The position numbers and the translations under genes are program-made. Positions 61,593 to 63,861 of a DNA stretch of 64,000 nucleotides are shown in pieces. The notes below the pieces were generated by a model that saw only the letters and a program-made list of their open reading frames with translations, was not told the DNA's origin and did no database searches. The stretch is taken from NCBI RefSeq assembly GCF_028890485.2, contig NZ_JARCHV010000002.1, positions 496,001 to 560,000 of the forward strand, written 5' to 3'. Source of the DNA: Planococcus sp. SK3692. GTDB lineage: Bacteria; Bacillota; Bacilli; Bacillales_A; Planococcaceae. Numbering within the stretch: the first letter of the stretch is position 1; each line of letters begins with the position of its first letter.

Positions 61593-61624
61593 TAAAGCCG
61601 CCGCATACATTGGCGGCTTTTTTT
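61593..61624 (+). terminator. Terminator of the rpiB-ywlG-glyA operon
   Basis: AAAGCCGCC / GGCGGCTTT with T7. Confidence 0.9.
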
Positions 61625-61660: not shown

Positions 61661-63835
61661 ATGCATCAATATGAAATCCAGGAAGACCGGAAAGTGATCA
61701 TAGATTGGCTGCGCCGTCTCGGGCTTGAATTCCACACGAGTTTTGTCGTCGTGAACCCGGAAATTTCTGAACATCCAATAGCCTACGCCAATGAAGCATT
61801 TTTTGAAATGACTGGGTATAGTGAAGAGGAAGTTATCGGAAGAAACGGTAAATTCCTCCATGGAACGAAAACCGATGCGAATACCGGCAGCCAGATTCGC
61901 GAGGCAACGGCATCTGCGCAGCCCGGCGTTTTTGAAATCGTCAATTACCGAAAAGACGGCACGCCTTTCTGGAACGAAATCACGGTCCAGCCACTGGCGT
62001 TTCCAGAGAAGTCAATGCGCTATACATTGATGCTTCAGCGAGATATCAGCGATCGCCGGCGGGCAGAAACATTGATCGATTTACAAAAAGAAACGTATAA
62101 AGGCATTGAAAAAGGGCATGTACTCGGGATGCTGCTGCAGAACATCTGCGAAACGGCAGAATCATTTTTCCTCGATGGTGTACGCTGTACCGTTCTCTTG
62201 GTAGATGAAGCGAAGCGTTTTCAGGTAGGGGCGGCGAAATCGATGCCGGATGAATTCACCTTAGGGATGCGCGGGCTGGAAGTATCAGCTGATTCGAGTC
62301 CTTGCGGCGCGGCATACCTGCGCCAGCAACCGGTCATAGTCGAGAATGCAGGACAGGATGCACTTCTAAGCAATCAACAAGACGTTCTCGACAGGTTTGG
62401 CATCAAAGCCATCTGGTCGGTGCCGATTTTTAACGGCAAGGAAGAAGTGATCGGCACCTTCGGGATTTACTTTCCGGCAATCTATAAGCCATCTCAAAAA
62501 GATCTGGTCTTTATGGAAGAAATCGCGTCGATTGTTTCATTGGCAGTGAAGTTCTCGCGCCAACAAGAAGAGATTTTACGGCTTGCCTATATTGACGAGG
62601 AATCAGGGCTGCCGAACCGCCATTATTTCCGCACCGAACTCAAAGAACTGTTGAAGGACGGGAAAGAAGGGTTTGTCGCGTTTATCTCCGCAGACGAATT
62701 CATCAAAATCAGCGATCAATACGGTCACCGAGCAGGCAATGATTTGTGCCGGGAACTTGGCCGCCGTCTTGTGTTAGCAGGAGGCGCCGGGGAAAAACTG
62801 GTCGCGCGTTTTTCCGATTCAAGATTGTCGCTATACAGCACCATCCCATTAACGCACGCGCCTGAATTTCTCGAGGATATCCTAAGCAGTCTAAGGGAGC
62901 CGGTGTCGATCGGTGAGATGGATTTGTTTTTAACTGTTAAAGTTGGCGTAGCGATTGTTACACCTGCCCAACAGAATGCAGAAGAGCTAGTCCGCTGTGC
63001 TGACAGTGCGTTGTCAAAAGCGAAAGAACGCATCGGCGAAGCGGTCTGCTATTTTGAAAATGAACAAGATGAGTTGATGATGCGCGATTTACGAGTCGCC
63101 AATGCTTTGACGGTAGCGCTCAAACGAAAAGAAATCAGTGTCTTCCTGCAGCCGAAAGTATCGCTCGAAAGCCGAGACATTCTCGGGTTTGAGGCGCTGG
63201 CCCGCTGGAAGTCTCCGGAACTCGGGGATATTTCGCCCGCTATTTTCATTCCCGCCGCTGAGAAGAACGGCAAGATCCGCCAACTTGAGCAGCATGTGAT
63301 CGAGCAAGTTTTGTCTTGGCTGAAAAAGCGCCAAGAACAGGAGTTGGAGCTACGCCAAGTGGCGATCAATATCTCAGCAGAACATTTCTTCCATCATTCC
63401 TTCGTGCCGTATCTGGTGGATGAAACGAATAAATTCGGTGTGGATCCGAAATGGATTCAGCTCGAGATCACCGAACGCATCGGCGTCGTCGATATCGATA
63501 CGGCCGGCACGGTATTCGATCAGCTGAAAAAATATGGGTTTGCGACTTCCATCGATGATTTTGGGACAGGCTATTCGTCTCTCAGTTATCTCCAAAAGCT
63601 GCCTGTTGAAGAAATTAAGATCGACCGTTCTTTCGTATCCAATATGGAAGAACACGGGACGCGTGCCGTCATTCGGACCATTATTCAACTGGCGGACAAT
63701 TTAGGGCTGCGGGCAGTCGCGGAAGGCGTCGAAACAGAAGACGATCGGACGCAATTGCTTGAGATGGGCTGTACCATCGCCCAAGGCTTTTTATTCCACC
63801 GGCCGATGCCGATCGATGAAGCACATTTACTCTAA
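61661..63835 (+). CDS. PAS(LOV-like)-GAF-GGDEF-EAL protein, likely c-di-GMP phosphodiesterase
   Basis: A 724-residue soluble sensor. Residues 20-130 are a PAS domain of LOV type (TGYSEEEVIGRNGKFLHG, NYRKDGTPFWNEI, LMLQRDIS), but Gly63 stands where photoactive LOVs have Cys. About 145-305 is a GAF domain. About 310-465 is a GGDEF domain with FSDSR (384-388) instead of GGDEF, so no cyclase activity is expected. From about 485 is an EAL domain with intact FEALARW (Glu511), EITE, DDFGTG, KIDRSF and EGVE. ATG 61661 follows GGGAGG. It is inserted between glyA and upp. Confidence 0.9.
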   Translation: MHQYEIQEDRKVIIDWLRRLGLEFHTSFVVVNPEISEHPIAYANEAFFEMTGYSEEEVIGRNGKFLHGTKTDANTGSQIREATASAQPGVFEIVNYRKDGTPFWNEITVQPLAFPEKSMRYTLMLQRDISDRRRAETLIDLQKETYKGIEKGHVLGMLLQNICETAESFFLDGVRCTVLLVDEAKRFQVGAAKSMPDEFTLGMRGLEVSADSSPCGAAYLRQQPVIVENAGQDALLSNQQDVLDRFGIKAIWSVPIFNGKEEVIGTFGIYFPAIYKPSQKDLVFMEEIASIVSLAVKFSRQQEEILRLAYIDEESGLPNRHYFRTELKELLKDGKEGFVAFISADEFIKISDQYGHRAGNDLCRELGRRLVLAGGAGEKLVARFSDSRLSLYSTIPLTHAPEFLEDILSSLREPVSIGEMDLFLTVKVGVAIVTPAQQNAEELVRCADSALSKAKERIGEAVCYFENEQDELMMRDLRVANALTVALKRKEISVFLQPKVSLESRDILGFEALARWKSPELGDISPAIFIPAAEKNGKIRQLEQHVIEQVLSWLKKRQEQELELRQVAINISAEHFFHHSFVPYLVDETNKFGVDPKWIQLEITERIGVVDIDTAGTVFDQLKKYGFATSIDDFGTGYSSLSYLQKLPVEEIKIDRSFVSNMEEHGTRAVIRTIIQLADNLGLRAVAEGVETEDDRTQLLEMGCTIAQGFLFHRPMPIDEAHLL

Positions 63836-63861
63836 CCGGGGCAATTGCCCTGGTTTTTTAT
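63834..63861 (+). terminator. Terminator of the EAL protein gene
   Basis: AACCGGGGCAA / TTGCCCTGGTT plus T6, overlapping the stop codon. Confidence 0.85.

Follow-up and report, generated by a model that had tools for sequence, protein, structure and literature searches.

The glyA–upp locus and its predicted phosphodiesterase

The window, that is, the whole 64,000-nucleotide stretch of Planococcus sp. SK3692 DNA that was analysed, carries between glyA and upp a gene for a LOV-GAF-GGDEF-EAL protein, a predicted c-di-GMP phosphodiesterase (PDE). Its main features are as follows.

61600..61617, + strand: intrinsic-terminator-like hairpin 3′ of glyA and upstream of the PDE gene, kept in relatives
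61661..63835, + strand: single open reading frame for the LOV-GAF-GGDEF-EAL protein of 724 residues, with orthologs in 44 further Planococcus genomes
61739..62065, + strand: LOV-derived PAS domain, residues 27–135 (PDB match YtvA 2pr5; NCBIfam YtvA_fam)
62132..62548, + strand: GAF domain, residues 158–296 (Pfam GAF_2, E 5e-16)
62585..63031, + strand: degenerate GGDEF domain, residues 309–457 (Pfam; SDSRL motif at 62813–62827)
63101..63805, + strand: EAL phosphodiesterase domain, residues 481–715 (Pfam, E 5e-65)
63834..63855, + strand: intrinsic-terminator-like hairpin after the PDE gene

The reading frame opens with an ATG at 61661, 3′ of a Shine-Dalgarno-like GGGAGGG, and ends with its stop at 63835. 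Pfam bounds the PAS domain at residues 36–131, and its limits for the other three domains are those listed. The gene stands alone between its neighbours, with terminator-like hairpins flanking both ends, and the hairpin at 63834..63855 suggests a one-gene transcript. Near relatives of the genome include P. citreus, P. maitriensis and P. maritimus. Since 13 GGDEF, 8 EAL and 1 PilZ matches exceed the Pfam cut-offs in the SK3692 genome, a c-di-GMP network is present for the enzyme to act in.

The EAL catalytic set (E511, N570, E602, E605, D632, D633, K653, E688 and Q708) is complete in 93 of the 93 aligned rows that have residues there. The GGDEF/GGEEF motif occurs in none of the 45 Planococcus orthologs, which show the pattern S-D/G-S/A-T/R-L/I, and an active diguanylate cyclase is ruled out by SDSRL in place of GGDEF. 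From these nine catalytic residues and SDSRL, c-di-GMP breakdown is the predicted output. The combination of a GAF domain (Pfam), a dead GGDEF and an intact EAL described in the first-pass annotation is thus confirmed. The ortholog of Planococcus sp. 107-1 (L116:4001-5416) ends after 472 residues, before the EAL domain.

A LOV-derived domain with glycine at the adduct position

Solved LOV domains match the first 150 residues of the protein. The best PDB match is YtvA (2pr5, E 3.8e-25), and phototropins match the domain at E about 1e-22 in the PDB comparison. The NCBIfam model YtvA_fam reaches E 2.7e-34, below its whole-family cut-off, and the NifL HMM gives a weak match, also below cut-off. 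Sequence similarity of the kind that marks canonical LOV photoreceptors extends across the whole domain. All motifs named at first reading are in place (GRNGKFLHG at residues 60–68, NYRKDGTPFWN at 95–105, LMLQRDIS at 123–130 and FSDSR at 384–388), and so is the proposed substitution: the adduct-forming Cys of the GxNCRFLQ loop is absent, with Gly63 in the window protein and Gly in 45 of 45 Planococcus sequences. The codons concerned are these.

61847..61849, + strand: Gly63 codon GGT at the adduct-Cys position, aligned with YtvA C62
61859..61861, + strand: codon for His67, present throughout Planococcus where YtvA has Q66, the Gln that contacts ribityl and phosphate
61943..61945, + strand: codon for Asn95, the counterpart of YtvA N94; pocket position conserved among LOV domains and the same in all Planococcus sequences
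61973..61975, + strand: codon for Asn105, the counterpart of YtvA N104; pocket position conserved among LOV domains and the same in all Planococcus sequences
62036..62038, + strand: Gln126 codon (YtvA Q123, N5-protonation relay), Met or His in 8 of 45 orthologs

Nine residues were taken as diagnostic of LOV domains (G59, N61, R63, F64, L65, Q66, N94, N104 and Q123; list from PMC4682037). The window protein keeps seven of them. Elsewhere in its genome, three canonical LOV-STAS proteins keep all nine, and seven ordinary PAS domains keep one or two. This signature and the YtvA match rule out a chance resemblance or an ordinary PAS domain. The two missing residues are replaced by Lys64 (YtvA R63) and His67 (YtvA Q66). 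In YtvA, both positions contribute to coordination of the ribityl chain and the phosphate (PMC3836802). The flavin-pocket signature claimed in the first-pass annotation therefore holds for the seven residues and is incomplete at these two. Scores in Planococcus span five to eight of nine, so that the window protein lies one below the best of the genus. It lacks the Cys, as the LOV* class of PMC4682037 does, and its seven of nine fall under the filter of at least nine other conserved residues applied there to natural Cys-less LOV domains.

The three LOV-STAS proteins are YtvA-like, carry GRNCRFLQG and lie at G000:C1:13309-13644 (L007), G000:C5:347080-347421 (L008) and G000:C5:146295-146615 (L009). 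Just upstream of the intact LOV-STAS gene of a 48-kb contig lie two short fragments of LOV-like sequence (G000:C1:12734-13010), one of them interrupted by a TAA, which are perhaps a decayed duplicate. Residue 82 (window 61904–61906), two residues past R80, is Cys in 29 of 45 Planococcus orthologs. It is Ala in the window protein, and a substitute Cys elsewhere in that protein is not supported.

Conservation within Planococcus and origin of the glycine

The ortholog set comprises 45 Planococcus sequences, the window protein and those of 44 further genomes. Their agreement on Gly63 rules out a sequencing error, and all four Gly codons are used. Codon changes were counted by parsimony on a tree built from the remaining domains. 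Codon 63 has undergone at least 15 changes without any amino-acid change, which places Gly63 under purifying selection. Codon 67 has changed at least 10 times with His retained in 45 of 45, and N62, N95 and N105 are likewise never altered, while residue 61, next to the pocket Asn62, has changed at least 13 times. Orthologs down to about 51% identity to the window protein still hold Gly63, His67, N62, N95 and N105. Mean entropy within the genus is 0.25 at pocket positions against 1.08 at random LOV positions (permutation p 0.00025), although folding may also keep loop residues. The first-pass annotation had named an unconserved pocket among orthologs as the mark of an ordinary PAS domain; since N62, N95 and N105 are invariant, the pocket is conserved within the genus, and the alignment at position 63 that it proposed bears out the Gly.

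Other positions vary. At the position equivalent to YtvA R63, 28 of the 45 sequences have Arg, 15 have Lys and 2 have Ser. Q126 persists in 37 sequences and gives way to Met in 7 and to His in 1, while 4 sequences have His instead of the phosphate contact R80. The variation at Q126 and R80 points to a loosened constraint on some aspects of the photochemistry.

The gene order glyA-X-upp-wecB is common to Planococcus, Paenisporosarcina and Sporosarcina, and Cys-bearing orthologs occupy the same position. At one locus (L129), a 2.2-kb gap follows glyA. The adduct position holds the canonical Cys in four of five Paenisporosarcina sequences, Leu or Ile in Sporosarcina, and Leu, Ile, Phe, Tyr or Val in other genera of the family, where the pocket has decayed further than in Planococcus. 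A locus of the Sporosarcina type (glyA-PDE-upp-wecB) also appears in a record titled Arthrobacter beigongshangensis (L138), a title that looks mislabelled.

On the tree, Gly at the adduct position arose once. In the LOV tree rooted with proteobacterial LOV domains, nearly all outgroups have Cys and Paenisporosarcina is basal in the family. Since the outgroups of the rooted trees have Cys, its loss is the simplest reading of the sequences, though not proof. The opposite course, in which the family was ancestrally a redox flavoprotein and the Cys-bearing Paenisporosarcina proteins are derived, has been proposed in general terms for LOV origins (PMC4682037, PMC9098866). When AU tests were applied to the short LOV domain, with the mis-framed L151 left out, they rejected neither arrangement of the non-Cys rows, which leaves this course some room; nor does the domain decide between a single and a repeated loss of Cys. 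We nevertheless consider a gain of Cys very improbable: it would have had to restore precisely the canonical loop NCRFLQG, and, apart from one Ser variant, all sampled outgroup LOV domains have Cys, including that of a LOV-GAF-GGDEF-EAL protein with canonical Cys and intact GGDEF in another Bacilli family (L216, L218). A further Cys-less LOV domain, with Ser in QKNSRFLQG, is found in another Bacilli family (L232, G437:C1:1559616).

A proposed flavin-reduction switch and its rivals

The best explanation, to which we give a roughly even chance, is that the protein is a core c-di-GMP PDE of Planococcus whose LOV-derived sensor, with Gly for Cys, acts as a flavin-reduction switch on the EAL domain. 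The sensor would descend from a canonical blue-light LOV domain in which the adduct Cys was replaced by a selectively kept Gly, and would bind FMN, riboflavin or FAD. The domain would change conformation when this flavin is reduced, whether chemically, through the redox state of the cell or oxygen, or under blue light, through photoreduction to the semiquinone. Signalling would thus proceed via flavin (photo)reduction, not adduct formation, and the conformational signal would pass through the C-terminal helix and the GAF domain, with the dead GGDEF as connector, to the active EAL. Gly fixed throughout the genus, together with a largely retained flavin pocket, suggests a former light sensor that now reads the flavin redox state or an altered light chemistry. 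From sequence and analogy we infer flavin binding, signalling by redox or photoreduction, and control of PDE activity by the LOV-derived domain, which probably still binds flavin. The similar interpretation in the first-pass annotation is partly supported.

In favour of this switch count the YtvA match and the seven-of-nine signature, the low entropy of the pocket positions, the silent codon changes at Gly63 and His67 and the complete EAL set; against it count the score below the LOV* filter, the changes at Q126 and R80 in some orthologs and the decay of the pocket in other genera. Several precedents also bear on it. The relatives' loop GRNGRFLHG has as its top PDB match over that stretch the GRNGRFLQG of miniSOG, a flavin-binding LOV derivative (PMC6382843), so Gly in place of the Cys need not prevent FMN binding. 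Without their Cys, Vivid and the YtvA-based YF1 retain signalling through a neutral semiquinone formed by photoreduction, and reduction alters the conformation of the natural BAT-LOV* (PMC4682037). As signalling by LOV domains is possible in the absence of the Gln (PMC9098866), Met at position 126 is compatible with function in the orthologs that have it. RmcA is a GGDEF-EAL phosphodiesterase under flavin-redox control (PMC12540587). The proposed switch, at about even chances, rests on these precedents and on the predicted EAL output.

Cys-less LOV domains and flavin-redox PDEs are thus already known, and the window protein resembles each in part. With the natural and engineered LOV* proteins (BAT-LOV*, Vivid C108A, YF1 C62A; PMC4682037) it shares the missing Cys and a signalling output, and it keeps the Gln relay. 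The residues named there are Ala, His and Pro, whereas Gly is fixed genus-wide here; the incomplete pocket, the c-di-GMP PDE output and the Cys-bearing orthologs at the same gene position also set it apart. Like miniSOG, a phototropin-2 LOV2 engineered from Cys to Gly, it has Gly in a GRNG-FL-G loop, but it is natural, has His for Gln after FL and is known from sequence alone. YtvA of Bacillus subtilis, a LOV-STAS protein, is the closest solved LOV domain by sequence, yet it has Cys62, R63, Q66 and a STAS output where the window protein has Gly, Lys, His and an EAL output. The LOV-GGDEF-EAL protein of Synechococcus elongatus presumably has a canonical Cys-bearing LOV domain and no GAF. Like the window protein, it places LOV before GGDEF-EAL with a PDE output, and its PDE activity is reportedly inducible by blue light (a 2010 paper cited in PMC10396304). 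The likeness to RmcA and AxDGC2 lies in the proposed logic, in which the flavin redox state of a PAS domain sets the GGDEF-EAL output; the PAS domains of these two proteins are reported to be of a redox type that binds FAD (PMC12540587), whereas that of the window protein is LOV-derived and its GGDEF is dead.

The main rival, less probable than the switch yet a serious contender, is a retired LOV domain that neither binds flavin nor senses light and would serve for dimerisation, as a structural module or for another ligand, with GAF as the real sensor. The progressive loss of pocket residues in other genera, with bulky residues at the Cys place, fits this account, as does the loss of Q126 and R80 in parts of Planococcus, and the three canonical LOV-STAS proteins could handle light sensing. 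However, purifying selection on Gly63, His67, N62, N95 and N105 goes beyond what a mere fold would be expected to require. It is unlikely, in our view, that the light-only version of the switch holds and the protein is mainly a blue-light receptor in which Gly creates a miniSOG-like flavin that controls the PDE after photoreduction to the neutral semiquinone or by making singlet oxygen or superoxide. The loop identical to that of miniSOG apart from Q to H, the light response of Cys-less LOV proteins by photoreduction (PMC4682037) and the retention of Q126 in most orthologs speak for it; the lower light sensitivity caused by Cys removal (PMC4682037), the presence of three canonical LOV proteins elsewhere in the genome and the loss of the Gln relay in 8 of 45 orthologs speak against it. 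A bolder form of the flavin-reduction switch, which we rate as rather unlikely, would make the protein nature's equivalent of miniSOG. Its LOV domain, derived from an adduct-forming photoreceptor at the same genomic position and with a Gly maintained by selection, would respond to blue light and to oxygen or the redox state by forming flavin semiquinone (or reactive oxygen), and these signals would control c-di-GMP breakdown throughout Planococcus.

The apparent loss of Cys stands in contrast to the view that LOV domains lacking it represent the ancestral condition. The finding bears on whether such domains in nature are working sensors or relics. The position between glyA and upp offers a built-in control, with one genus mostly Cys, one fixed for Gly and others with bulky residues, and this ortholog set would permit a direct test of LOV photoreduction or redox sensing.
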